Positions 16,395 through 27,555 of a stretch of DNA of 34,989 bases are shown here, piece after piece. Within the stretch, counting starts at the first letter, position 1; each line of letters opens with the position of its first letter. This DNA is from a virus, in IMG/VR virus record IMGVR_UViG_3300012984_000026, positions 1 to 34,989 of that record, one strand, 5' to 3'. Under the pieces are notes generated by a model. The model did no database searches and was not told where the DNA came from. It saw nothing but the letters and a program-made list of their open reading frames with translations. Both the position numbers and the translations under genes were made by a program.

Positions 16395-16641
16395 AAGCGT
16401 ACGAGCGGGGTGATCTCTGCTCTCAAGACGCTCAGTGTCTCATCGCGATGAACGCGACAGGCAGGTAACGGAGTCCGATTCCGCTTGCCCCCTCGGGGGT
16501 TGGTCCAGGGTCGCTAGGATGAACCGGTACTGAAGGCCTGCGTCGTGCCTCTCGCCGCTGGACTGCATCACTAAGGGTCCAGGGGGAATGCACGTAGCGA
16601 TCAGGCTGAGCTAAGTTCGTACGCAGTCCAATTCCCTGTAA

Positions 16642-16699
16642 GAGCCATCGGACACACCTACTGAGGCGTATGCGGTAGGTAGGTGTGTCCTCTTGGCTC
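16642..16699 (+). promoter_or_regulatory. Long leader hairpin before the first early gene
   Basis: GGACACACCTAC (16650-16661) pairs with GTAGGTGTGTCC (16679-16690), 12 bp, and an outer GAGCCA/TGGCTC stem extends it across a small internal loop. The structure ends 16 bases before the first early start codon and just ahead of its ribosome site. It may be an RNase III site or a translational control element. Confidence 0.65.
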
Positions 16700-16715
16700 C
16701 GCAGAGAGGATCATC

Positions 16716-16907
16716 ATGGAACACGCATGTGACTACTGTGACGAGGGACGCCCTGTTGAATGGGCGTACGAAACAGTCGCTCGTGGGTGGAGGTTCCTGT
16801 GCCAGTCGTGCTACGACTGGACGCCGGGCATCCAGGTGTGGGCAGAGATCTACAACCCTCTGCGCTACTACCCCACGTTCGACTACGACACCCGTACCGT
16901 CAAGTAG
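16716..16907 (+). CDS. Small zinc-ribbon-type protein, 63 residues, first early gene
   Basis: The ATG at 16716 follows AGAGAGGA with five bases spacing. A CDYCDEGRP pair at the N-terminus and CQSC near residue 30 give a four-cysteine arrangement typical of a zinc ribbon. The rest is aromatic-rich (WAEIYNPLRYYPTFDYDTR). As the first gene after the leader it is likely among the earliest expressed and may bind a host protein or nucleic acid. No family was recognised. Confidence 0.75.
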   Translation: MEHACDYCDEGRPVEWAYETVARGWRFLCQSCYDWTPGIQVWAEIYNPLRYYPTFDYDTRTVK

Positions 16908-16915
16908 GAGTGATC

Positions 16916-17134
16916 ATGAGTGAATACACCACCATACGAGGGTCCCGAGTGATCCGCGTCAACAAGGTGGGTGGGGGCACACTCGGTCACCGGTACGCTG
17001 GTGACTGGGAGGTCACGGTCACGGACTCCGGTACGGTTGTGCTGGACGATGTGATCACGACCGGTACCCCCAAGTTCTACTGCGAGGTTGCTGACCTCGC
17101 AGAGGAGTTCTCCGACGATCTGGACGAGGTGTGA
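16916..17134 (+). CDS. Small early protein, 72 residues
   Basis: The gene starts at ATG with AGGAGTGATC directly upstream, nine bases after the previous stop. The protein begins with a short strand-rich basic part (TTIRGSRVIRVNKVGGG) and ends in an acidic segment (LAEEFSDDLDEV). One cysteine is present and there is no membrane segment. No family was recognised. It is part of a four-gene cluster of very small proteins before the tRNA-like-element cassettes begin. Confidence 0.72.
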   Translation: MSEYTTIRGSRVIRVNKVGGGTLGHRYAGDWEVTVTDSGTVVLDDVITTGTPKFYCEVADLAEEFSDDLDEV

Positions 17135-17136
17135 TC

Positions 17137-17313
17137 ATGCAGGACTGCACGGACAAGTGCGAGAACCGTTGCGGCTACGAAAGTCGGGGCGGTCGCTCGG
17201 TCTACTGGTGTGGGTACGGCAAGAACACGCCTGGTGAGAAGATCCACGGCGAACACGACTGGTACTCCTACGTCCAGGGACGCTGGGAGCACTGCTACGG
17301 AACGGGAGAGTAA
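17137..17313 (+). CDS. Cysteine-rich small protein, 58 residues
   Basis: I chose ATG 17137, not GTG 17131, because the preceding gene uses the same GATCATG context with a purine-rich site at equal distance. The protein has CTDKCENRCGYESRGG, then WCGYG, and a last cysteine in HCYGTGE, six acidic or aromatic-flanked cysteine or histidine positions in all that could bind zinc. Function is unknown. Confidence 0.7.
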   Translation: MQDCTDKCENRCGYESRGGRSVYWCGYGKNTPGEKIHGEHDWYSYVQGRWEHCYGTGE

Positions 17314-17314
17314 C

Positions 17315-17416
17315 ATGCCCTACTGGCACTGGCTGCTCCTTCCGCTTCCGTTCTTGCTGGCATGGCTACTGGTAGCCATCCAGTACAAGCGTCACCCCGA
17401 GGACTTCCCTCGGTAG
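17315..17416 (+). CDS. 33-residue single-span membrane protein
   Basis: The ATG follows GGGAGAGTAAC, one base after the previous stop. Residues 5-23 (HWLLLPLPFLLAWLLVAI) form one transmembrane helix with a short basic cytoplasmic tail (YKRHPEDFPR). Such miniproteins in early phage operons often modify host membrane processes, but nothing specific can be read from this one. The first tRNA-like element begins eight bases after its stop. Confidence 0.65.
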   Translation: MPYWHWLLLPLPFLLAWLLVAIQYKRHPEDFPR

Positions 17417-17424
17417 CAACAGGG

Positions 17425-17464
17425 GCCTGAATGGCATACATCAACGTTCGAGTCGTTGACAGGC
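17425..17464 (+). ncRNA. tRNA-like minihelix TLS1
   Basis: Acceptor-like GCCTG/CAGGC (5 bp), linker AATGGCATACA, T-arm TCAACG/CGTTGA with loop TTCGAGT. The D and anticodon arms are missing. It sits between the 33-residue and 119-residue genes. A following hairpin (GGCGC GCTA GCGCC, 17462-17475) shares three bases with the acceptor strand, so the two helices exclude each other in this copy only. Confidence 0.75.
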
Positions 17465-17551
17465 GCGCTAGCGCCGCTTATGGTGGCAACGGCACACAGG
17501 GATCCGCTGATCAGCGGGCAAACGGTCAAACACACCTGAAAGGTGACCCAC

Positions 17552-17911
17552 ATGCAACTGATCAACGCCAACGGTGAGATCGTTGAATCCGGAGCTAAGC
17601 TGCGGGTTGCACACGGTCGGGAGATCGGCCAGATGTGGCTGTACTCTCACGTCGTTGAGCATCCTGTTGACGGCCACCGGGTGCATGTCACCCGTCGCCA
17701 CACTCGACTCGGACACATCCACCGGGAGTTCCACCCCCGTGTGTTCGGTCTTGAGGTGAAGGTCGACATCACATGGCAGCGCCACGTGATCAACAAGGCA
17801 CATGACGTGCGGTGCAAGTTCGATGATTACCTGCTTGCGGGTATCGTCGCACTCGTCCCGCTCGCCCTGTTCGAGCACTATCACTTGGCGGAGGTGATCT
17901 TTGGTCACTGA
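17552..17911 (+). CDS. Unknown protein, 119 residues, with C-terminal hydrophobic segment
   Basis: The start is ATG 17552 after GAAAGGTG. The N-terminal half looks like a small beta-rich domain (GEIVESGAKLRVAHGREIGQM, then DGHRVHVTRRH), possibly a KOW- or SH3-like fold by its strand pattern. The C-terminus contains YLLAGIVALVPLALFEHYH, long and hydrophobic enough for one membrane helix. It is the first gene with a tRNA-like element in its upstream gap; the gap is 135 bases, longer than the others. Function is unknown. Confidence 0.72.
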   Translation: MQLINANGEIVESGAKLRVAHGREIGQMWLYSHVVEHPVDGHRVHVTRRHTRLGHIHREFHPRVFGLEVKVDITWQRHVINKAHDVRCKFDDYLLAGIVALVPLALFEHYHLAEVIFGH

Positions 17912-17921
17912 CGTAGGGTGA

Positions 17922-17961
17922 GGGCGAACGGCATACACCCTGGTTCGAGTCCAGGGCGCTC
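17922..17961 (+). ncRNA. tRNA-like minihelix TLS2 with downstream hairpin
   Basis: GGGCG/CGCTC (5 bp with one G-U), linker AACGGCATACA, T-arm CCCTGG/CCAGGG, loop TTCGAGT. ACT follows, then a hairpin GTGACC ATAC GGTCAC at 17965-17980, then the ribosome site and ATG 17999. Element and hairpin fill nearly the whole intergenic gap. Confidence 0.78.
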
Positions 17962-17998
17962 ACTGTGACCATACGGTCACTATCCGAAAGGGTTGGAC

Positions 17999-18373
17999 AT
18001 GATCAAAATCACGGCAGACGACGTCAAGGCTGGTCTGACTGCTCTCGTTGAGCAGAAGGGGGCCGACTACGTCTACACCTCGTGGATGTACGGGTGGGGC
18101 TACCGCTGCACCTACGTCAAGGATGGCGAAGGTGACTGCGGTGTCGGCTGCTACCTGATCAACAAGGGTGTGCCTGCCTCCCGTCTGATCGAGTTCGATC
18201 AGCAGGAGTACGCGGTGGGCGCCCCCAGCGTTCTCGACGCTCTGCGCCATGAGGGTGTCCTTGACTTCGAGATCGAAGCCTCGGACATGCTGAAAAACTT
18301 CCAGCGCTACCAGGACTCCGGTCACACCTGGGGCCTTGCTCTGCGCAAGACGCTGGACAAGTTCAACAAGTAA
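17999..18373 (+). CDS. Unknown protein, 124 residues
   Basis: The start is ATG 17999 with AAAGGGTTGGAC upstream. The protein is soluble and mixed alpha/beta. It has a cysteine-containing centre (YRCTYVKDGEGDCGVGCYLINKG, residues about 37-60) and a helical C-terminus. DGEGDCGVGCYL resembles a papain-like or toxin-like active-site turn but no full motif is present. Function is unknown. The gene lies between TLS2 and TLS3 as a cassette. Confidence 0.75.
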   Translation: MIKITADDVKAGLTALVEQKGADYVYTSWMYGWGYRCTYVKDGEGDCGVGCYLINKGVPASRLIEFDQQEYAVGAPSVLDALRHEGVLDFEIEASDMLKNFQRYQDSGHTWGLALRKTLDKFNK

Positions 18374-18380
18374 GTAGTGA

Positions 18381-18420
18381 GCCCCAACGGCATACATCCT
18401 GGTTCGAGTCCAGGAGGGGC
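18381..18420 (+). ncRNA. tRNA-like minihelix TLS3 with downstream hairpin
   Basis: GCCCC/GGGGC, linker AACGGCATACA, T-arm TCCTGG/CCAGGA, loop TTCGAGT. GCT follows, then a hairpin GGGCGC TTTCT GCGCCC (18425-18441, extended by one G-U pair to 18424-18442). It starts seven bases after the previous stop codon. Confidence 0.8.
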
Positions 18421-18466
18421 GCTGGGGCGCTTTCTGCGCCCTGTAACGGCTCACACGGAGGAAGAC

Positions 18467-18868
18467 ATGAACGCTTACGAGACTGCCCTTGCGCTGACCG
18501 TCATGGCCCGCGCTGGACAGGACGGTACGGTCGACTCGCTCGTGCCGCTCGATGGGTTCGAGCAGGATGCCCTCCCCCTCACCGGATTCTGGGTGGGTGG
18601 TGTGCGTCCGTCGCTCGTGATCAACAGCATCGACGAACTGGACCGGGGTGACCTGGGATGGTTCGTCGGTGGCACCGATGCCCAGTACTTCGGTGTCTGG
18701 ACGGACAAGGAGGACGGCAAGATCTACTTCGACGCCGTCACTCACGTCCAGAAGCGGTCGGAAGCGCTCGCCCTCGGGGCGGAGCGCGGAGAGATCGCAG
18801 TGTGGGACATCCTCAACAGCGAGGAAGTCCGAGTCAAGAACGCCCAGGGTGTGGGTGACGACAACTAA
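18467..18868 (+). CDS. Unknown protein, 133 residues
   Basis: ATG 18467 is preceded by GGAGGAAGAC, the strongest site in the cluster. The protein is acidic with an early helix (YETALALTVMARAG) followed by a beta-rich middle (GFWVGGVRPSLVINSID, GWFVGGTDAQYFGVW). The two GG-containing strands look like a repeat in a small beta sandwich. No catalytic motif, cysteine or membrane helix is seen. It lies between TLS3 and TLS4. Confidence 0.75.
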   Translation: MNAYETALALTVMARAGQDGTVDSLVPLDGFEQDALPLTGFWVGGVRPSLVINSIDELDRGDLGWFVGGTDAQYFGVWTDKEDGKIYFDAVTHVQKRSEALALGAERGEIAVWDILNSEEVRVKNAQGVGDDN

Positions 18869-18888
18869 CCCCCACACTAGCCTGGGAA

Positions 18889-18930
18889 GCGCCGATGGTC
18901 GGAAGGGCAGGTTCGACTCCTGCCCGGCGC
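18889..18930 (+). ncRNA. tRNA-like minihelix TLS4 with divergent linker
   Basis: GCGCC/GGCGC, an 11-base linker GATGGTCGGAA, and a 7 bp T-arm GGGCAGG/CCTGCCC with loop TTCGACT (equally readable as 6+6 bp). The linker differs from the family consensus except for ATGG, so it is the best pointer to which bases matter. GCT follows, then hairpin GGGATCAC ACTCC GTGGTCCC (18934-18954) before the next gene. Confidence 0.75.
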
Positions 18931-18973
18931 GCTGGGATCACACTCCGTGGTCCCTTGCTTACAGGAGGACATC

Positions 18974-19396
18974 ATGGCTGGCAAGTTCGACACCGGCTAT
19001 ATGGATAACGCCCTGTTTGACCTTCAAGGTGTGATCGACGAGGCTAAGCGAAACCTGGCTGACATCGACTTCGACACCCTTGTCGGCACCGGATTCTCCG
19101 GTGGCGTCGTGATCCCGTCTCTCGCTCTCGCCATGGGCAAGAAGTTCGTCCTCATCCGAAAGGAGACGGACGACTCCCACCACGGCAAGGGTCGCCTCAT
19201 CGGCGAACTCGGCAAGAAGTGGATCTTTGTGGACGACTTCGTGTCGTCCGGCAAAACCCGCACCCGGGTGATCGAGAAGGTCGAGGGTGCGGCCGGGGAG
19301 CGCGGGCATAACACTCAGATGGTGGGTGAGTACATGTACGAGGGCTTCGGCCGCTTCCGTACGTACAACACCGAGTGGCTTGAGCCCCTTTGGTAG
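18974..19396 (+). CDS. Phosphoribosyltransferase-like protein
   Basis: The 140-residue product starts at ATG 18974 with AGGAGGACATC. Residues 84-95, IFVDDFVSSGKT, match the PRPP-binding motif of type I phosphoribosyltransferases. GTGFSGG (38-44) matches the earlier loop that contacts pyrophosphate, and LIRKE near 60-64 fits the second strand. The family moves a phosphoribosyl group from PRPP to a base or amine. It is shorter than typical orotate or adenine enzymes (about 180-210), lacking most of the hood that chooses the substrate, so the substrate is unclear and it could be a regulatory relative. Confidence 0.82.
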   Translation: MAGKFDTGYMDNALFDLQGVIDEAKRNLADIDFDTLVGTGFSGGVVIPSLALAMGKKFVLIRKETDDSHHGKGRLIGELGKKWIFVDDFVSSGKTRTRVIEKVEGAAGERGHNTQMVGEYMYEGFGRFRTYNTEWLEPLW

Positions 19397-19406
19397 GATT
19401 CAGGTA

Positions 19407-19446
19407 GCCAGAACGGCATACACCTAGGTTCGAGTCCTAGGCTGGC
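19407..19446 (+). ncRNA. tRNA-like minihelix TLS5 with downstream hairpin
   Basis: GCCAG/CTGGC, linker AACGGCATACA, T-arm CCTAGG/CCTAGG, loop TTCGAGT. ACT follows, then a hairpin with GGG A CGACGCA pairing to TGCGTCG CCC (19450-19473, one bulged A). The stems differ at almost every base from TLS1-4 while pairing is kept. Confidence 0.8.
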
Positions 19447-19490
19447 ACTGGGACGACGCAAGGTGCGTCGCCCTGTCTATGGGAGTGGAC

Positions 19491-19988
19491 ATGATCGGTA
19501 ACGCCACAGAGGCCCAGTTCATCCACAACTGGTACCACAACAAGCCGCTCACCCCGTTCGACGCCCCTGAGGGGTGGAGGCGACTGGGGTCCGGGTCCTT
19601 CCGTGTCGGCTTCCTGTCCCCGTCTGGTGTCGTCTACAAGGTCCAGCAGGACCTGAGCAACAGCCGCTACCAGACCAACGAGGGCGAGTGGAAGAACTAC
19701 AAGCGTCTGTACCTCACCTGCAAGATGCCGCGACACTCGCGTCTGCCCCAGATGGGCTTCTTCCCCATCGAGGGGACCAACGTCGGGGTCATCGCAATCG
19801 AGAAGCTGTCGAACGGCCCTGGCTGGTACGGCACGGTCAAGCTCGATGACGGCTCGACCTACAACTGGGGTGACGTCGTCGGCAACATCCAGGCGGCCAC
19901 CCGCGTGGGTGACCTGTACGGCGACAACGTCCTGATGGACGCGGAGAACAAGCTGGTCGTCCCGAGCGACCTTGGTGACACCTGGTAG
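19491..19988 (+). CDS. Minimal protein-kinase-fold protein, 165 residues
   Basis: ATG 19491 is chosen because GGGAG precedes it, matching neighbours; in-frame ATG 19479 lies upstream of that site. The sequence carries a kinase pattern in order. It has a glycine loop LGSGSFRVG (32-40), VVYK with K50, an acidic helix (GEWKNYKRL, E64/E66), a hinge-like VIAIEKL (100-106), a catalytic loop GDLYGDNV with D141 and N146, and SDLGD (D160) in the DFG position. There is no C-terminal lobe beyond this, so it is about half the size of usual kinases. It may be an active mini-kinase, an aminoglycoside-phosphotransferase-like fold or a pseudokinase. Confidence 0.72.
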   Translation: MIGNATEAQFIHNWYHNKPLTPFDAPEGWRRLGSGSFRVGFLSPSGVVYKVQQDLSNSRYQTNEGEWKNYKRLYLTCKMPRHSRLPQMGFFPIEGTNVGVIAIEKLSNGPGWYGTVKLDDGSTYNWGDVVGNIQAATRVGDLYGDNVLMDAENKLVVPSDLGDTW

Positions 19989-19998
19989 TTGACAGGTA

Positions 19999-20040
19999 GC
20001 CCCGAACGGCATACAGTGTGGTTCGAGTCCACACCGGGGC
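19999..20040 (+). ncRNA. tRNA-like minihelix TLS6 (12 bp) with downstream hairpin
   Basis: GCCCCG/CGGGGC (6 bp), linker AACGGCATACA, T-arm GTGTGG/CCACAC, loop TTCGAGT, giving the 12 bp acceptor plus T-stem length of a normal tRNA. GCT follows, then hairpin GCTGCCA TCC TGGCAGC (20044-20060), AAGGAG and ATG 20077. Confidence 0.82.
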
Positions 20041-20076
20041 GCTGCTGCCATCCTGGCAGCGCGTAAGGAGCAAGAC

Positions 20077-20259
20077 ATGGCTTTCTACAGAGAACCAATC
20101 ATCGAAGAACCACCTGTGTGCATCGTCTGCAAGACAGTCATGTACGACCGCAGGTGGGAGGATGGTCTGGTCTGCTCCGCCACATGTGCCGATCTCTGGC
20201 TCATGGCAGCGCACGGTCCGGACTACGACGTCGACCCCGAGGAGGCGCTGTATGCGTAA
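20077..20259 (+). CDS. Small four-cysteine zinc-binding-type protein, 60 residues
   Basis: ATG 20077 follows AAGGAGCAAGAC. The residues CIVC (about 15-18) and CSATC (about 33-37) form a CxxC...CxxxC zinc site. The flanking sequence TVMYDRRWEDGLVCSATCADLW resembles the small zinc knuckle domains of phage and toxin proteins. The C-terminus is acidic. Function is unknown. It is the last gene of the TLS cassette series and overlaps the next gene by eight bases. Confidence 0.78.
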   Translation: MAFYREPIIEEPPVCIVCKTVMYDRRWEDGLVCSATCADLWLMAAHGPDYDVDPEEALYA

Positions 20260-20401
20260 CAACACGACTCGCCAGTTCATCAAGCTGTCAAGACAGCGCA
20301 TGGACGGATGGGGTGGCCTGTGGTACCGTCACTATGGCACCCGTGGTCACGTTCGCGCTGGTGTCGTGAAGCTCAACACAAGATCGACAAGGTCACTGTG
20401 A
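20252..20401 (+). CDS. Basic small protein, 49 residues
   Basis: The ATG lies within the end of the preceding gene, eight bases before its stop, with GAGGAGGC in front. The protein is strongly basic (11 arginines) with a compact aromatic core (WGGLWYRHYG). It could bind nucleic acid. There is no membrane segment or cysteine. It is followed by a GC-rich hairpin that may end or process the transcript. Confidence 0.62.
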   Translation: MRNNTTRQFIKLSRQRMDGWGGLWYRHYGTRGHVRAGVVKLNTRSTRSL

Positions 20402-20412
20402 CTTAACTGGGA

Positions 20413-20461
20413 GGCACGGCCCTAAGGCCGTGCAGCCCGGCAGCATCACAGTGGTGCTGAT
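20413..20461 (+). repeat. Two intergenic hairpins
   Basis: GCACGGCC CTAA GGCCGTGC forms a perfect 8 bp stem at about 20414-20433. It is followed by CAGCATCAC/GTGGTGCTG, which pairs around a short centre. Neither is followed by a T-run; they more likely stabilise or process the mRNA than terminate it. No tRNA-like element is present in this gap, which ends the TLS series. Confidence 0.55.
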
Positions 20462-20480
20462 TCTATCAGGGAGATAGGAC

Positions 20481-20909
20481 ATGATCGTTCTTCGTGTAGA
20501 ACACGACTCGATCAAGAACTACTACGTCAACTTCCCGGTCGGCCCCTTCCAGGACGACTCGATCCTCATCGCCTTCATGGACGACGAGGAGAAGATGGGC
20601 GCGTACACTCGCGCCGTCCAGAAGCTGATGGAACACCTCAGCACAGACCGAGCCAAGTTCCCGACGCCGATGGCGGACCCGAGCCTGGGCTGGATTGCGC
20701 CGAACGAGGTGTGTGGTGTAGACTCTCTTGAGAGCCTGCACGAGTGGTTCGCAGATGCCCTCCCCCTGCTGGAGGAGTGCGGCTTCGTAATCGCCAAGTA
20801 CGAAGTCCCCAACAAGTACTGCAAGTTGGGGCGTACTGGGCAGGTCGTGTTCGATTCCAAGCACGCCAAGAAGATCGAGGAGATCACAGATGACCGACAA
20901 GACGCCTGA
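20481..20909 (+). CDS. Unknown acidic protein, 142 residues
   Basis: ATG 20481 follows GGGAGATAGGAC. It is a soluble, acidic, mixed alpha/beta protein with a hydrophobic strand start (MIVLRVEHD), a central helix (YTRAVQKLMEHLS) and a C-terminal basic/acidic helix (SKHAKKIEEITDD). No catalytic motif was recognised. It is coupled to the next gene by a 20-base overlap. It is likely an early host-interaction protein by location only. Confidence 0.75.
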   Translation: MIVLRVEHDSIKNYYVNFPVGPFQDDSILIAFMDDEEKMGAYTRAVQKLMEHLSTDRAKFPTPMADPSLGWIAPNEVCGVDSLESLHEWFADALPLLEECGFVIAKYEVPNKYCKLGRTGQVVFDSKHAKKIEEITDDRQDA

Positions 20910-21381
20910 GAACGAGTCCGTCAACGAGGCGGAGGAGATCCTCAAGGCAGAGCTTGCCCGACTCCAGTCGGGTGAGGCGTGTGTCGAAGGTGACGAGTGC
21001 CCCATCCATCACCGGCTGGACTTCGAGGAGCTGAACTCCCACATCGAGTACGGTCGGATCGTCACCTACGATGGCGACTACGTCGTGATTACGGGCGACA
21101 ACCCCGAGCTGGACAGTCCGACTGTAGTGCTCGGGCTCATCTTCGGCCTGTACTCCAAGGAGAACGTCCCGGACAAGTTCGAGACGTGCATCCTGAGGGT
21201 GGGCACCGGCTCTGTCGGTGATCTATACAAGCTGACGGCCGCCGACCGCGACAAGGCGGTTCGTTACATCCACACGCACTCGGACTGGTCTGGCTTCAAG
21301 GACCAGCACGAGTACGCCCTGATGGGCCTGCGTGAAGGTCTGATCGATGTCAGCAAGTCCGTACTCGGTAAGGAGGAGTGA
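20890..21381 (+). CDS. Unknown acidic protein, 163 residues
   Basis: The ATG is inside the end of the previous gene (20-base overlap) with GGAGATCACAG upstream. The first 45 residues are helical and strongly acidic (NEAEEILKAELARLQSGE), then a CVEGDECPIHH segment offers a Cys2His2-like metal site. The rest is alpha/beta (YDGDYVVITGDNPE, VVLGLIFGLYS). No family was recognised. It is coupled to the next gene by TGATG. Confidence 0.74.
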   Translation: MTDKTPENESVNEAEEILKAELARLQSGEACVEGDECPIHHRLDFEELNSHIEYGRIVTYDGDYVVITGDNPELDSPTVVLGLIFGLYSKENVPDKFETCILRVGTGSVGDLYKLTAADRDKAVRYIHTHSDWSGFKDQHEYALMGLREGLIDVSKSVLGKEE

Positions 21382-21587
21382 TGGGCTGGAAGACTGATCA
21401 GCCCGAGAAGCTGGAAGCTGTCGCCTACACCCGAGACTACTCGGCACAGTCTGTGTTCGAGGAGCTGAAGGGTGACGGCGGAGCCAACTTCAATGACACT
21501 CCGGAGTTCATCAACTACTACGACACGGACAGTTGGAAGGTCTACAAAGTCACCATCACCATCGAACCGGTGACTAGCGCAGAGTGA
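21381..21587 (+). CDS. Small protein, 68 residues
   Basis: ATG 21381 overlaps the previous stop (TGATG) and has AAGGAGGAG in front; an earlier in-frame GTG adds one residue only. The protein is polar and ends in a strand-rich segment (SWKVYKVTITIEPVTSAE). No motif was recognised. A strong UUCG-loop hairpin five bases after its stop closes this part of the operon. Confidence 0.7.
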   Translation: MGWKTDQPEKLEAVAYTRDYSAQSVFEELKGDGGANFNDTPEFINYYDTDSWKVYKVTITIEPVTSAE

Positions 21588-21592
21588 TCCGT

Positions 21593-21612
21593 CCGCCACC
21601 TTCGGGTGGCGG
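21593..21612 (+). terminator. GC-rich UUCG hairpin, possible terminator or processing site
   Basis: CCGCCACC TTCG GGTGGCGG is a perfect 8 bp stem with the very stable UUCG loop. No T-run follows, so in an actinobacterial context it may be a partial terminator or a 3'-end stabiliser. Confidence 0.55.
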
Positions 21613-21621
21613 CGGTTAAGT

Positions 21622-21695
21622 CAACACGGGCGCCACAATGGCGTGGCCCTCTAGGGGTTTGTCTGGCCCTGATCATGAGTTCTTCACCCGTGTTG
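21622..21695 (+). promoter_or_regulatory. Branched structured leader before the 80-residue gene
   Basis: CAACACGGG (21622-21630) pairs with CCCGTGTTG (21687-21695), 9 bp, enclosing CGCCA CAA TGGCG (21631-21643) and CCC TCTA GGG (21647-21656). A GATC-containing region near 21670 lies in the remainder. The closed multiloop directly upstream of a ribosome site resembles a cis-regulatory RNA. I do not recognise a known riboswitch class. Confidence 0.5.
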
Positions 21696-21730
21696 GCCTA
21701 TCCGCAGAAGCGGTCACGAAAGGATTGGAC

Positions 21731-21973
21731 ATGGCAAACATCGCCACCGTGTGGGTTGCAACCCGCTCAAAGCGCCCTGAGACTGCCCTCGAAGAGGGTA
21801 ACCTGATCGCATCGTGCCACTACGGCCCGTTCCCCCAGCAGGATGCCGAGCAGTACGCCAAGGACGAGACCATGGCCAGCGGGCAGGAGACCTACGTCTT
21901 CTGCGTGGAGATGGTCTTGAGGAAGGGGTACAAGATCCACAAGGAGGTGCACGCGTTTGACCCTGCCAAGTAA
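21731..21973 (+). CDS. Unknown small protein, 80 residues
   Basis: ATG 21731 has AAAGGATTGGAC upstream. The N-terminus is a beta strand (MANIATVWVATRS), and the middle contains CHYGPFPQQDAEQYAKDE followed by VFCVEMVLRKGY. It looks like a small alpha/beta domain with two cysteines, no membrane segment. Function is unknown. It overlaps the next gene by 17 bases and is preceded by the branched leader. Confidence 0.72.
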   Translation: MANIATVWVATRSKRPETALEEGNLIASCHYGPFPQQDAEQYAKDETMASGQETYVFCVEMVLRKGYKIHKEVHAFDPAK

Positions 21974-22523
21974 GCCGCAGCAGATAGCTGCGGTGGCCAA
22001 GTTCCTGGACTCCGACTTCACCGAGGGCAAGTCCCTCGAAGAGGTTGCCAAGGCCATTGTGAACGGCTACCATGAGGCTCTGATCAAGAACCTCAAGACG
22101 CCTGCCCCACCCCTCAGGGTGGGCATGCTGATCAAGACTCCACTCGATGCCAAGGTCCGACGTGTCGCCTGGATGGGTGACGGTAGGCTCTGGCTTGTCA
22201 GTGACACCGCTGGTGTCGGTTGGCTGGGCAGTGAGACAGACAACACCTGGCTGTATTGCGAGGAGTATCGTCCGCGTAAGAAGATCGACGGCAAGATGGT
22301 CGAGATGACGGACGAGATGATCGCGGAGGAGTGGAGTAACCCCGACTGGAAGGTTGGGGACAGGGTGTCCCAGCACCAGCGTGAGTTCATCTTCGAGGTG
22401 ATAGCGACTGGACCCCTGAGTGTGCTCCTGCTAGGGTCAGACGGCCGACTTACGGCCGACTCCAACGCTAGCCTGGAGAAGTACTACAAGCGGGAGGTTG
22501 GAGTGAAGGGCATCAAGTGGTAA
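21957..22523 (+). CDS. Unknown protein, 188 residues
   Basis: The start is TTG 21957, nine bases after a perfect AAGGAGG, inside the end of the previous gene. The first 50 residues are helical (QQIAAVAKFLDSDFTEGKSLEEVAKAI) and resemble small host-derived helical domains. Residues about 55-100 and 125-165 are beta-rich and may be two related domains (VRRVAWMGDGRLWLVSD; FEVIATGPLSVLLLGSDGRL). No family was recognised. Confidence 0.72.
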   Translation: MTLPSKPQQIAAVAKFLDSDFTEGKSLEEVAKAIVNGYHEALIKNLKTPAPPLRVGMLIKTPLDAKVRRVAWMGDGRLWLVSDTAGVGWLGSETDNTWLYCEEYRPRKKIDGKMVEMTDEMIAEEWSNPDWKVGDRVSQHQREFIFEVIATGPLSVLLLGSDGRLTADSNASLEKYYKREVGVKGIKW

Positions 22524-22699
22524 CCTGGATGCTGTGCATAACCCTGGTGGGCGTGTTCTGCTGGGGTCAGCACTGGAAGAACATCGCGTGGCGCATCACC
22601 GACATCGTCAACGAGATCCTGGAGGACGAACGTGAAGAACCTGTGGAAGAAGATCACGAAGCCGGTGATCACAGTGACCTGGACCACCCGAAAGGGTAG
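22517..22699 (+). CDS. Single-span membrane protein with acidic tail, 60 residues
   Basis: GTG 22517 overlaps the previous stop. Residues 4-20 (WMLCITLVGVFCWGQHW) form a membrane anchor, followed by a very acidic soluble tail (EILEDEREEPVEEDHE). The gene overlaps the next membrane protein by 68 bases in another frame, which is unusual in this compact but mostly four-base-overlap operon. Confidence 0.58.
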   Translation: MVTWMLCITLVGVFCWGQHWKNIAWRITDIVNEILEDEREEPVEEDHEAGDHSDLDHPKG

Positions 22700-22778
22700 C
22701 ACGGGCGTCTACGTCACCCGGCTGGGTCTGGTCTTCTGGACCATCCTCACTGCGTGGCTGGTCGTCCATGGATGGTGA
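22632..22778 (+). CDS. Small membrane protein nested over the previous gene, 48 residues
   Basis: GTG 22632 has GGAGGACGAAC just upstream, a near-perfect site. The protein has a basic N-terminus (KNLWKKITKPV) and one transmembrane helix (LGLVFWTILTAWLVVHGW). The overlap with the acidic-tail membrane protein recalls nested membrane-protein pairs of phages, but no lipoprotein motif is present. Both frames look real by ribosome site and composition. Confidence 0.55.
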   Translation: MKNLWKKITKPVITVTWTTRKGSTGVYVTRLGLVFWTILTAWLVVHGW

Positions 22779-23022
22779 TCTGACCGCCGCCCTCAAGGGG
22801 CTGATCGAGGAGTTCCGCGAGGGTAACCTGAGAGAGGGCGTACTGCCCCTTCACGGGCCCGGCAAGCCGTTCGACTGGGCAGACATCTCTCTCGCCCGGT
22901 TCCAGTCCTACAGGGGCCGCACAGAGGCGGCCCTCCTGGAAGAGTTGGAAGATCTGTGTCTGGGTGGGGAGTCCCTCTTCTACCACACGGACGACATCAT
23001 TGTCCACCTTCAGGTGACATGA
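22768..23022 (+). CDS. Unknown acidic protein, 84 residues
   Basis: The ATG is 11 bases before the end of the previous frame. The protein begins with an amphipathic helix (LTAALKGLIEEFREGNLREG) and contains another (RTEAALLEELEDLCLGGESLF). It is soluble and acidic with one cysteine. Function is unknown. It is the last gene before the hairpin that ends the first plus-strand operon. Confidence 0.7.
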   Translation: MDGDLTAALKGLIEEFREGNLREGVLPLHGPGKPFDWADISLARFQSYRGRTEAALLEELEDLCLGGESLFYHTDDIIVHLQVT

Positions 23023-23026
23023 GTAA

Positions 23027-23046
23027 GCCCGGCCGGAAGGCCGGGC
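23027..23046 (+). terminator. GC-rich hairpin ending the early operon
   Basis: GCCCGGCC GGAA GGCCGGGC is an 8 bp perfect stem five bases after the last stop. It lacks a T-run but its location between convergent operons supports a terminator role. TLS7 begins four bases after it. Confidence 0.65.
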
Positions 23047-23050
23047 CCAA

Positions 23051-23090
23051 GGGTGAATGGAATACTCCGGGGTTCGAGTCCCCGGCACCC
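23051..23090 (+). ncRNA. tRNA-like minihelix TLS7
   Basis: GGGTG/CACCC, linker AATGGAATACT, T-arm CCGGGG/CCCCGG, loop TTCGAGT. It lies between the operon-ending hairpin and the stop of the convergent sigma-like gene, so it is not in front of a gene on its own strand. It lacks the RCT hairpin. If transcribed, it would make the 3' end of the early mRNA. Confidence 0.75.
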
Positions 23091-23092
23091 AC

Positions 23093-23797
23093 TCAGCCCT
23101 CGTAGTCCTTATCGACTATGTGCTGTGCTGTATCCCCCCGGCCGACGTGTCCACGAGTGACAGCATCCGCTGTACGCCCGTCGTAGCCGTTCCTAAGGTC
23201 GCCTAGCGACCTTTCCCCGAGGGCCTTCTGAATGGCCTTCACAGCGTTGTCCAGGATCTTCTGGGCCCGCTGTCTGGTGAAGCCCATGGCGTCACCGATC
23301 TGCTGGTGTGTGTAGTGGTACTTGTAGCGCCACACCAGCGCGTTGTACTGTTCCTCTGGAAGGGACGCGATGGCACGTGAGACATCGGCATAGCTGGCCA
23401 GATTGTCGCCGGACGTGGCAGGCTCCGACTTAGCTCGGGGCATCCCGTCAGACGCAGCCTGACTGAACGACTGCCAGTCTTCGTGCTCGAACACCACTTC
23501 CAGAATGCTCTTGATCAGGTCGAGCGAGTACTCGAACCGGTCCTCCTGGTGATACCCGTAGTCAGCAGCATCCTCCTTCTTGAGGAAGTCGTTCGCAGCC
23601 TTCACAAGCAGCGGCACAACGACGTTGACCGTGGCGTTCTGATCACTCAGGACTCTGGTGACAGTGTTCTTGTTACTCATGATCCACACCCACAGCTCCT
23701 GCTTGACGTCGGAGATGTCGTGGTGGGCAGGGAAGTTGGACTTAGCGATACCGGCGGCACGCTCGACCGCCGGTGTCAGTCGGGTCCAGTCAATCAC
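23093..23797 (-). CDS. Sigma-factor-like transcription regulator, 234 residues
   Basis: I chose GTG 23797 because GGAG lies six bases upstream; the longer in-frame start lacks a site. The N-terminal part (about 20-50) contains HHDISDVKQELWVWIMSN, resembling sigma region 2.1. The C-terminal part (about 150-205), SLPEEQYNALVWRYKYHYTHQQIGDAMGFTRQRAQKILDNA, has the sequence pattern of sigma region 4 with its helix-turn-helix. It is likely an alternative sigma factor for phage promoters, perhaps the late operon whose leader has no vegetative promoter. The linker between the two regions is longer and poorly conserved. Confidence 0.72.
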   Translation of the reverse strand: MIDWTRLTPAVERAAGIAKSNFPAHHDISDVKQELWVWIMSNKNTVTRVLSDQNATVNVVVPLLVKAANDFLKKEDAADYGYHQEDRFEYSLDLIKSILEVVFEHEDWQSFSQAASDGMPRAKSEPATSGDNLASYADVSRAIASLPEEQYNALVWRYKYHYTHQQIGDAMGFTRQRAQKILDNAVKAIQKALGERSLGDLRNGYDGRTADAVTRGHVGRGDTAQHIVDKDYEG

Positions 23798-25578: not shown

Positions 25579-26372
25579 TGGAATACATCAGCTTCAGTCA
25601 GTACAAGGCGTACACGTCTTGTCCCCGCAACTGGTACTTGTCCAAGGTCGCCAAGGCCGAGGAGAAGCAGACCTGGTACCTCCCGATCGGGAGTGCCGTG
25701 CACAACATGATCGAAGCTCACCTGTCGGGCGAGTACGACGATCTGTTTGCCGCAGACTTCTTCTACCCGCTGGTAGAGAAGCAGATGGAGATCGAACCTG
25801 ATCTCTCTAAGTGGTTGGCAGGCGGTCCTGAGGACCGCCCCGTTAAGGAGGAGCTTGCACTCGAACAGGTTCGTGTCTGCTTTGAGCAGGCGCTGGTCGA
25901 GCTTGATGACCTGGATGTCTGGGAGGTCGAGTACGATGCGACTGGACGACTTCCATCCCTGGAAGTTCCCGTCCGGGGATACGTGGACATCATCGGAGAA
26001 CACAAGAAGCACGGACGGGTGATCCTGGACTGGAAGACTGGCAGCACTAAGCCGGACAACTTCCAGCTCCAGACCTACGCCGCCCTGCTGAATCACTCGA
26101 ACAAGCTGTTCGGCAACGTCAAGGGTCGGTACGTCATGCTTGCGCCTGGCACACCGAACACAAGGTACGTGGATCTGTCAGGTGTGGACCCCGCAGAAGT
26201 GGGTAGTAAGTATCAGCGGGTGTACGAGAAGATGCAGAAGAAGATCTACAAGGCCGAGCCCGGCTTCGGCTGCCGCTTCTGCTTCAACCAGGACAACTGC
26301 CTGGCCAACAAGGGCCCGAACCCTCGGACCCAGTACTTCGATAGGAGTGCCCAGGATGGGCTCCCGTTCTGA
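25578..26372 (+). CDS. Cas4/RecB-like PD-(D/E)xK exonuclease with Fe-S cysteines
   Basis: The 264-residue product has its ATG overlapping the WhiB stop. Motifs are GSAVHNMIEAH (H42), YVDIIG (D137), VILDWKTG (D151, K153) and QLQTY (Q163, Y167), the RecB nuclease core. C15 together with C232, C235 and C241 match the four cysteines of the Cas4/AddB iron-sulfur cluster. Phage homologues act in DNA recombination and replication-fork processing. The context with ssDNA-binding-type proteins, helicase and primase supports replication or recombination and not CRISPR adaptation; no Cas1/Cas2 or repeats are present. Confidence 0.92.
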   Translation: MEYISFSQYKAYTSCPRNWYLSKVAKAEEKQTWYLPIGSAVHNMIEAHLSGEYDDLFAADFFYPLVEKQMEIEPDLSKWLAGGPEDRPVKEELALEQVRVCFEQALVELDDLDVWEVEYDATGRLPSLEVPVRGYVDIIGEHKKHGRVILDWKTGSTKPDNFQLQTYAALLNHSNKLFGNVKGRYVMLAPGTPNTRYVDLSGVDPAEVGSKYQRVYEKMQKKIYKAEPGFGCRFCFNQDNCLANKGPNPRTQYFDRSAQDGLPF

Positions 26373-26517
26373 CGACGACTACTGGAACAACAAGTACGCT
26401 GAGGCGTCGTGCTACGAGCACGGCGGCGCCGAGATGCACTACGATCCCAACGCTGACGAGTGGGGTTGCTACGTCTGCGACGAAGAGAACGAAGAGGACG
26501 AAGAGGATAATGGCTGA
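26356..26517 (+). CDS. Acidic CxxC protein, 53 residues
   Basis: The ATG lies within the end of the nuclease gene. A single cysteine-histidine pair (SCYEHGG) and CYVC near residue 40 make a Cys3His-like zinc site. The last ten residues are almost all acidic. No family was recognised. It overlaps the next start by eight bases, so it is tightly co-translated with the recombination genes. Confidence 0.68.
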   Translation: MGSRSDDDYWNNKYAEASCYEHGGAEMHYDPNADEWGCYVCDEENEEDEEDNG

Positions 26518-27428: not shown

Positions 27429-27506
27429 GGGCCTGATTCGGTATCGTCCAGGGTGAAAGCCGCATGCGGAACGCCTTGGCACAGGGGTTCGATTCCCCTC
27501 AGGTCC
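27429..27506 (+). ncRNA. TLS8: tmRNA tRNA-like-domain look-alike (78 nt)
   Basis: Acceptor GGGCCTG/CAGGTCC (7 bp) has a G-U at the third pair, T-arm AGGGG/CCCCT carries loop TTCGATT, and A follows as discriminator. There is no D stem: ATTCGGTATCGT leads directly into a long arm CCAGGGTG/CGCCTTGG (8 bp) capped by CCGCATGCGG. Bacterial tmRNA has the same layout, with GGGGCUGAUUC at its 5' end, a stemless D-loop, a long P2 helix and G3-U70 for alanylation. Here the message and pseudoknots are missing. No five-base anticodon stem with seven-base loop can be drawn, so it is not a normal tRNA. Confidence 0.7.
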
Positions 27507-27555
27507 ACAACCCACGGCGGTAGCCGTGGCTAGAGCCACCCGAAGGGATGGCGTT

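Follow-up and report, generated by a model that had tools for sequence, protein, structure and literature searches.

The enzymes known to act on a tRNA-shaped fold within a longer RNA are RNase P, on its 5' side, and RNase Z, on its 3' side, and in mitochondria these two excise the tRNAs that lie between mRNAs. A comparable arrangement is considered here for seven short elements, TLS1 to TLS7, in the viral record IMGVR_UViG_3300012984_000026, positions 1-34,989 (the whole stretch of 34,989 nucleotides (nt) that was analysed, hereafter the window). As in mitochondrial punctuation, tRNA-shaped elements lie between reading frames of the same strand, and their proposed excision would free the individual messages; unlike the mitochondrial case, the elements belong to DNA phages, are mostly 40-nt mimics with neither D-arm nor anticodon arm, and their cleavage is here inferred. 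The preferred reading, to which a probability of roughly 0.6 is given on the evidence of sequence, is that early phage mRNA is punctuated in the tRNA style by host RNase P, probably together with RNase Z. A fuller version, for which the odds seem about even, is that of a phage punctuation code, in which 40-nt mimics, possibly the smallest natural class of tRNA mimic, combine an 11-nt substitute for the D-loop with new tertiary pairs, recur in most of the large gaps between early genes, can be exchanged for whole tRNA-like and tmRNA-like folds, and are cut by RNase P and RNase Z to give hairpin-capped messages in the phages of several bacterial groups.

A number of other described systems share parts of this plan. 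At the 3' ends of MALAT1 (where the fold is mascRNA) and NEAT1 an RNase P-cut tRNA-like fold also acts as a processing signal, the nearest analogue being TLS7 at the operon end, but those folds are cloverleaf, nuclear and mammalian whereas the phage elements are minimal and many per genome (on such folds, see PMC12941219). The model substrates of RNase P, the AT1 hairpins and pMini, contain the same half of tRNA with T-loop, discriminator and C74, but are man-made, whereas the phage elements are natural, usually 11 base pairs (bp) in stack, and carry a conserved 11-nt D-loop-like linker with covarying tertiary pairs (compared with the substrates as given in part of PMC11143913). The tRNA-like structures of turnip yellow mosaic virus (TYMV) and tobacco mosaic virus (TMV) are likewise viral acceptor/T-arm mimics that RNase P can cleave, although they form the RNA 3' end, with CCA and pseudoknots, whereas the phage elements are internal, repeated and CCA-less and belong to DNA phages (PMC12710915, in the portion dealing with these structures). 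The tRNA-like domain of transfer-messenger RNA (tmRNA; RF00023) also pairs an acceptor with a T-arm in the absence of an anticodon arm, and a separate stretch of the window, 27429-27510, matches it; unlike tmRNA, the window's elements have no tag-encoding mRNA domain, and 27429-27510 is only 82 nt. Finally, phage transcripts are represented among RNase P substrates by M3 RNA, the C4 antisense RNA of P1 and P7, and T4 gene 32 mRNA, but these, as presented in part of PMC11143913, are single cases with no repeated intergenic code.

All seven elements, which the preliminary description had reported as sharing one plan, were found where it had placed them, on the + strand, and the acceptor pairs, linkers and T-loops it had quoted proved correct on re-reading of the sequence (Table 1). 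Its coaxial length of "11-12 bp as in tRNA" holds in part: tRNA has 12 bp, as do TLS4 and TLS6, but the stack of the other five elements is 11 bp (5+6). The acceptor of TLS2 includes one G.U pair, and the variant subfamily of TLS4 is also present in phage Oaker. A descriptor with a free 7-21-nt linker gives seven matches on the + strand of the window and none on the - strand; applied to phage stretches it finds matches in Kaine (7), Oaker (8), RedBear (7) and Hubbs (1), on a single strand per genome. The window's core pattern, with up to three mismatches, is matched 6 times against 0.18 expected, a number reached in 0 of 100 shuffles. The folding energies of single elements are unremarkable, only slightly better than those of shuffles (z from -1.0 to -1.7), and the case for the elements is one of covariation rather than stability. 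ARAGORN calls no tRNA gene in the window, the elements being 40-42 nt with a 10-11-nt linker and without cloverleaf or anticodon arm. The seven elements match no Rfam family at gathering score, and even at E-values up to 5 all matches fall far short of it, for example RF04354 on the strand opposite TLS4 with 23.9 against 65.7 bits; nor do the 40-nt elements match tmRNA (RF00023) at gathering score.

Table 1. Positions in the window of the seven elements, their neighbouring hairpins (HP1, upstream; HP2, downstream) and the tmRNA-like domain.
Feature	Position	Strand	Size or stack	Acceptor	Linker	Other details
TLS1	17425-17464	+	40 nt, 5+6 bp	GCCTG/CAGGC	AATGGCATACA (11 nt)	loop TTCGAGT
TLS2	17922-17961	+		GGGCG/CGCTC	AACGGCATACA	
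HP2 of TLS2	17965-17980	+				GTGACC-ATAC-GGTCAC, ahead of ribosome-binding site and start
TLS3	18381-18420	+		GCCCC/GGGGC	AACGGCATACA	
HP2 of TLS3	18425-18441	+				downstream hairpin
TLS4	18889-18930	+	12 bp		GATGGTCGGAA	variant subfamily, T-loop TTCGACT
HP2 of TLS4	18934-18954	+				downstream hairpin
TLS5	19407-19446	+		GCCAG/CTGGC	AACGGCATACA	
HP2 of TLS5	19450-19473	+				downstream hairpin
TLS6	19999-20040	+	12 bp	GCCCCG/CGGGGC	AACGGCATACA	
HP2 of TLS6	20044-20060	+				downstream hairpin
HP1 of TLS7	23027-23046	+				GCCCGGCC-GGAA-GGCCGGGC, operon end, 4 nt 5' of TLS7, no U tract
TLS7	23051-23090	+		GGGTG/CACCC	AATGGAATACT	operon-end element; relatives swap larger tRNA-shaped folds here
tmRNA-like domain	27429-27510	+	82 nt, 7+5 bp			tail ACA, no mRNA domain, hairpins on both sides

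The elements of the window belong to a large RNA family, mostly of phages, which has no Rfam entry. Distant blastn matches to the region fall in 25 phage records of Streptomyces, Mycobacterium and Microbacterium, and the best-matching place in each is the element with a few flanking bases, beneath no annotated feature. Viral contigs scanned with GGCATACA-N5-GTTCGANTC gave 100 stretches. In the loci fetched to that point, a perfect 5-bp acceptor, absent from the search pattern, is found in 92 of 105 distinct copies; the mean number of acceptor pairs is 4.65 out of 5, against 2.68 when the strands are shuffled among copies. Thirteen copies lack a perfect 5-bp acceptor, and two of these, which recur across 14 loci, appear to be a variant whose acceptor has 6 bp and whose linker is ATGGCATACA. 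This linker is also seen in a set of near-identical contigs (L013, L029, L037, L046, L056 and others) with the acceptor AGGTAA..TTACCT, or nearly so, and a tail of AT rather than of a purine and C (R-C). Scanning with a different linker, GGCAGACA, gave 119 distinct matches with both stems intact in 106, while a scan with GGTTTTCG mixes true tRNAs with elements, both stems being intact in only 23 of 52 distinct matches.

Among the fetched viral, phage and chromosomal loci there are 595 distinct geometries, of which 554, in 241 loci, are of the 5+11+6 type. The dinucleotide GG stands at linker positions 4 and 5 (L4L5; linker positions are numbered L1 to L11) in 545 of these main-geometry copies, in 235 loci, some of the 241 and 235 loci lying on the same contig; the 235 loci are mostly GC-rich, with 41 rounding to 30-40% GC. 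In the 1.27 Mb of fetched loci, a 6+5-bp stack is combined with a linker of 11 nt 198 times and of 10 nt 20 times, all other lengths from 4 to 25 nt occurring at most three times each, counts that come from redundant copies in loci mostly fetched by a pattern that fixes the spacing from GG to T-loop and leaves the acceptor free. Seven control loop heptamers have no match at a linker of 11 in the same sequence, and a 7-bp acceptor on a 5-bp T-stem with a short linker is nearly absent from the fetched loci. The 79 aligned copies conform to the T-arm consensus G53-TTCRANY-C61, with the loop-adjacent G-C pair and T54, T55, C56 and A58 invariant, an invariance due largely to selection, these letters having belonged to the search rules. 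The family appears to be undescribed, although the principle of punctuation by tRNA is already known from mitochondria; no description of these elements was found in open-licence papers, judged by title and the start of the abstract, in a search that left subscription papers mostly outside.

Fundamental to the case is the covariation of the stems, which the preliminary description had seen within the window and which extends both to the 79-row alignment and to orthologous junctions. In the alignment the named structure is paired in 98.7% of cells (stem pairing, unlike the tertiary pairs, was a selection rule for these rows), and changes on both sides of a pair number 344 against 90.6 in shuffles; sliding the structure by 1-3 columns drops pairing to 30-42%. 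For the junctions, 37 elements of the window, Kaine, RedBear, Oaker, Papyrus and Hubbs were located through their downstream sequence only. At 125 orthologous junctions the element is identical in 28, different in 87 and unrecognised at the expected place in 10, and in the 87 differing junctions 777 pairs are unchanged, 157 have changed in a compensatory way, 11 have changed on one side only and 12 are broken, where one locus may recur under several queries and the counts are not of independent events. Inspected by eye, eight of the ten unrecognised junctions seem to carry the same element a few nt out of place; of the other two, one (L031) has a larger tRNA-like fold and the other nothing alike.

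A second set of pairs involves the linker. Mutual information over 176 copies is 1.19 bits between L2 and L8 and 0.60 bits between L9 and T-loop position 60, neither of which was used in the search. Among the 545 copies, L2:L8 is Watson-Crick in 536, L9:60 is a standard pair in 510, and L10:59 is C-G in 508. Scans that fix L9 as G, C or T and leave position 60 free gave, over all loci fetched and among the matches listed with intact stems (the whole acceptor and at least five of six T-stem pairs), C in 94 and T in 8 of 102 for L9=G, G in 29 and T in 2 of 31 for L9=C, and A in 14 and G in 5 of 19 for L9=T; L2:L8 is Watson-Crick in 101 of 102, 28 of 31 and 19 of 19 of these, respectively. In the matches listed without intact stems (55, 79 and 58), which by their stems are mostly chance, position 60 is mixed. 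With L9=A position 60 is T in 257 of 257, loci drawn with T fixed and so uninformative on covariation. A minor subfamily with the linker GGTTTTCG and the loop TTCGATT lacks the L9:60 pair, T-T being found in 32 of 545. Comparison of the copies thus shows what is predicted to be a folded elbow, with a near-invariant GG at L4L5, the L2:L8 pair, and L9 and L10 pairing with T-loop positions 60 and 59. The earlier suggestion of a tRNA-like acceptor and T-arm with GG docking on the T-loop is in this way strongly supported in structural terms; the GG would be the analogue of G18G19 and L2:L8 that of the Levitt pair.

The recurrence with covarying stems that had been proposed as a check in actinophages is borne out by a covariance model built from the 79 copies and run on 14 named phage records. 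Matches number 9 in Kaine, 2 in Hubbs, 8 in Oaker, 7 in RedBear, 13 in Papyrus, 1 in Pitbull, 10 in phiCAM and 10 in phiScoe10, so that six of the eight positive phages hold 7-13 copies each; R4 has solely a partial match of 17 bits, and phiC31, TM4, Giles, Persimmon and LW81 have none. The 8 of 14 is no measure of prevalence, ten records having been chosen from blastn hits and four (phiC31, R4, TM4 and Giles) by accession. Lactococcus phage LW81 and Streptomyces phage Persimmon were rejected as carriers, their blastn hits failing the model and the stretches concerned holding annotated tRNA genes. In Arthrobacter phage Pitbull (L299, 1414-1560) the annotated gene 39 overlaps the element (26354-26393 of the record), and this reading frame may be spurious. 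In host genomes, searched with a strict prefilter and with the best 20 or 31 first-look candidates per genome scored, the model at E 1e-6 finds elements rarely, in at least 1 of 296 Actinomycetes, which is the seed genome, and in at least 2 of 199 Flavobacteriaceae, one of them the seed. The 20 chromosomal stretches include the Bacteroidota Tenacibaculum, Flavobacterium and Hymenobacter; near-identical elements with the tail TC occur across several Tenacibaculum species (L117, L121 and L128).

The placement of the elements is that expected of mitochondrial-type punctuation, since in five annotated phages an element on the coding strand occupies most large gene gaps. These phages have 47 model hits, 46 of them inside the gene arrays examined, and all 46 are on the coding strand with 44 overlapping no annotated gene. 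Elements occupy 41 of 48 gaps of at least 70 nt, 2 of 6 of 50-69 nt and 1 of 27 shorter ones, gaps below 50 nt being hardly able to fit a 40-nt element. Of the seven unoccupied gaps of at least 70 nt, four contain nothing alike; in the other three are, respectively, a broken remnant, a variant element and a 12-bp helix that has a T-loop but no linker. The 44 elements between listed genes lie at a median of 11 nt past the stop codon and 44 nt ahead of the next start, and since this spacing, with its hairpin and ribosome-binding site, leaves little room for a promoter, read-through transcripts are likely. Each array is taken to be one transcript, and the arrays would be of early genes, to judge by position and the small reading frames. 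The remaining hit, in Papyrus (L304; element 59971-60010 of the record, model hit 59968-60014), is outside the main array and was not included in the placement figures; it overlaps gene 78 at its annotated start, and either that start may be misplaced or the element intragenic.

On either side of the elements stand hairpins, which were counted in 420 non-redundant copies with 20 shuffles. Downstream, a hairpin (HP2) starts after 2-5 free nt in 183 of 420 (shuffles, mean 28.7 and maximum 39; a control stretch farther downstream, 21), and upstream a hairpin (HP1) ends 0-3 nt before the element in 84 of 420 (shuffles, mean 27.8 and maximum 40). To the eye, HP2 seems to be preserved by compensatory change at orthologous junctions, for instance between Kaine and phiCAM, and in Streptomyces phages the stop codon often lies in the loop of the upstream hairpin.

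The tail and stack of the elements resemble in part those of tRNA-enzyme substrates. A T-loop-closed acceptor/T-stem stack is present as in RNase P substrates, with G1-C72 in 468 of 545. Of the R73-C74-C75 tail of such substrates, R73 is found in 522 and C74 in 521 of 545 but C75 in only 38, and A(-1) is found in 378 of 545 copies. As with RNase Z substrates, CCA is seldom encoded after the discriminator (8 of 545). The comparison with host tRNA genes used Jiangella, Amycolatopsis and Microbacterium, from which the best 30 of 47, 49 and 45 Rfam matches gave 94 genes with a standard T-arm motif, three others being skipped; every one of these 94 has C74, the 69 that encode no CCA among them, and C75 is present in 22 of the 69 CCA-less genes. 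The R-C tail of the elements thus obeys the hosts' own rule for CCA-less tRNA genes. Recognition by the CCA enzyme or EF-Tu, which the preliminary description had offered as an alternative, seems less likely for elements that lie inside mRNA and avoid an encoded CCA.

A further line of evidence comes from the end of the operon, where the mimic is exchanged for larger folds. The window's convergent sigma-factor-like gene has a homologue in 16 loci, and in these and the window a GC-rich hairpin followed by a tRNA-shaped element was seen by eye just past the C-terminus of that gene, at the early-operon end. Thirteen of the 17 sequences were parsed, the remainder being copies or near-copies. Three are minis, in which the linker is 11 nt and the stack 11 bp, although L023 among them lacks GG and has the aberrant loop TGCGAGC; the other ten are 53-130 nt with linkers of 22-99 nt, among them tRNA-like folds with extra arms, one tmRNA-domain-like and one nested with three T-arms. 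In six of the ten longer elements a perfect 12-bp stack is combined with an R-C tail; L082 can be read either as 12 bp without an R-C tail or as 11 bp with one, and there are one or two mismatches in L008, L091 and L049. ARAGORN calls a tRNA at the operon-end spot in 6 of the 17 loci, Cys in L008, L018 and L091, Phe in L015 and L081, and one of undetermined identity in L144. The operon-end site keeps acceptor, T-arm and R-C tail, and all decoding parts are free. At the operon end of L014, L048 and L088 the element is of about 130 nt and ends in an AC tail, a single acceptor stem enclosing three nested T-arms. Elsewhere in the window, 27429-27510, which ARAGORN misses, sits between two + strand genes and scores 55.2 bits against RF00023 (gathering score 47), or 46.6 bits when the stretch is searched alone. 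In Oaker (L132), a gap without a standard element holds at 23640-23670, + strand, a linker-less 12-bp helix with the T-loop TTCGACT and the tail GC, which resembles the AT1 model substrate of RNase P; linker-less whole-helix minihelices were rejected as a class, this being the one clear 12-bp case.

How might such an element work? It would be a minimal acceptor/T-arm mimic of tRNA that punctuates a polycistronic transcript between presumed early genes. Host RNase P would hold the elbow and cleave at the 5' end of the acceptor, and RNase Z or an equivalent would cleave 3' of the discriminator base. Excision would leave the upstream mRNA with a 3' end a few nt from HP1 and the downstream mRNA with a 5' end a few nt from HP2, and hairpins near both new ends could confer exonuclease resistance. 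Processing by RNase P gains indirect support from the flanking hairpins on both sides, the exchange with tRNA- and tmRNA-like folds and the R73-C74 tail. What is described of the enzymes is compatible with such a substrate: for RNase P the D-loop appears to be dispensable and a T-loop or similar feature required, and RNase Z works by clamping the elbow, CCA being an antideterminant (PMC4919913, in the parts that treat these enzymes), while RNase P cuts acceptor/T-stem/T-loop model hairpins, phage RNAs and mRNAs (part of PMC11143913).

A number of points weigh against punctuation by RNase P, of which the 11-bp stack and the rarity of C75 are the main difficulties. The 6+5-bp stack accounts for 554 of 595 geometries, whereas the 12-bp distance from T-loop to cleavage site in tRNA is the proposed ruler of RNase P (PMC11143913, in part), a deficit that would possibly be offset by a purine-purine layer, A(-1).R73, or by a shifted cut. 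C75, present in 38 of 545 elements, belongs to the RCC pairing with E. coli RNase P RNA, and according to the relevant part of PMC12710915 a pseudoknot RNA without the 3' RCC motif was not cut by that RNA. HP1 is statistically far weaker than HP2, any hairpin at all lies within 40 nt downstream in just 272 of 420 (shuffles, mean 162), and TLS1 and TLS7 have no obvious HP2, TLS7 also having no following gene. In the five annotated phages, three or more model hits run into the annotated start of a gene (two by 9 nt, and that of Papyrus gene 78). Promoters may also lie at some junctions, TLS1 and TLS6 overlapping sigma-70-like hexamers. The TTGACA-like boxes at 17456-17484 and 19989-20017 (+ strand) are among four in the region against 1.7 expected, and are either real early promoters or chance. 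As a general explanation promoters were rejected, the other five elements having no boxes and the linker letters of the would-be -10 box covarying.

If punctuation by RNase P is true, a widespread mRNA-processing strategy has been overlooked in annotated phage genomes, and RNase P gains a routine part in viral mRNA maturation. There would then be hundreds of natural minimal substrates with which to study elbow recognition by RNase P and RNase Z, mitochondrial tRNA punctuation and MALAT1-type processing would be linked to phage gene expression, and such short, portable elements, which are present in phages of laboratory strains, could provide a compact part for mRNA insulation.

The main rival, docking without cleavage, is unlikely. 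The elbow would stay in the mRNA and recruit an elbow-binding factor, be it the ribosome, a protein of the phage or an RNase P that does not cut, insulating the cistrons or aiding translation of the next gene. Such a role would suit the fixed spacing to the next start (median 44 nt), the conserved tertiary pairs of the elbow and a stack of 11 rather than 12 bp, but it has no need of a CCA-less R-C tail or of hairpins at the outer edges, and TLS7 and its relatives stand at an operon end with no same-strand gene downstream. It is improbable that the elements serve stability only, as compact exonuclease blocks between cistrons with no specific partner among tRNA enzymes: plain hairpins would suffice for this, yet GG, L2:L8, L9:60 and the R-C tail are retained across widely different contigs, and the operon-end site tolerates 40-130 nt while retaining acceptor and T-arm, even if HP1, HP2 and the GC-rich stems are in keeping with protection. 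A distinctly improbable role is that of a decoy, in which many copies would sequester either an enzyme of the host that binds tRNA or a defence nuclease directed at tRNA. The 7-13 copies in most positive phages and the rarity of elements in the sampled host genomes fit this, but roughly one copy per large gene gap and hairpins at both edges are left unexplained, and there is no anticodon arm as bait for anticodon nucleases. Highly improbable is a site that acts in DNA, as a single-stranded hairpin for cassette recombination (like integron attC) or for protein binding; although about one element per large gap, variable stems on a conserved plan and an orientation fixed relative to the genes would be in accord with it, the T-arm invariants, GG, loop-linker pairs and exchange with tRNA- and tmRNA-like folds are features of RNA, and at orthologous junctions the gene is retained and the element diverges through compensatory changes. 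An origin as decayed tRNA genes or as chance repeats can practically be discounted. Six of the 17 tRNAs that ARAGORN calls in loci holding two or more elements do overlap elements, but decay would break pairs that in fact covary, the window has no cloverleaf, and the 11-nt linker length is identical in hundreds of copies.

Several other candidates were tried and rejected. Covariation rules out attachment sites as well as decayed tRNAs, and, the stems covarying, sites for a DNA-binding repressor of the stoperator kind (the concept as given in part of PMC3029335) were dropped as the main explanation. Intrinsic terminators were rejected for want of a U tract, the three terminator-like sites in 16400-23200, against 3.2 expected, all being on the - strand. 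As a minor observation, Hubbs (L131) has two equal-scoring elements near both genome ends, at 1105-1144 of the locus and 61504-61543 of the record, and this phage also encodes an RNA ligase and a polynucleotide kinase.

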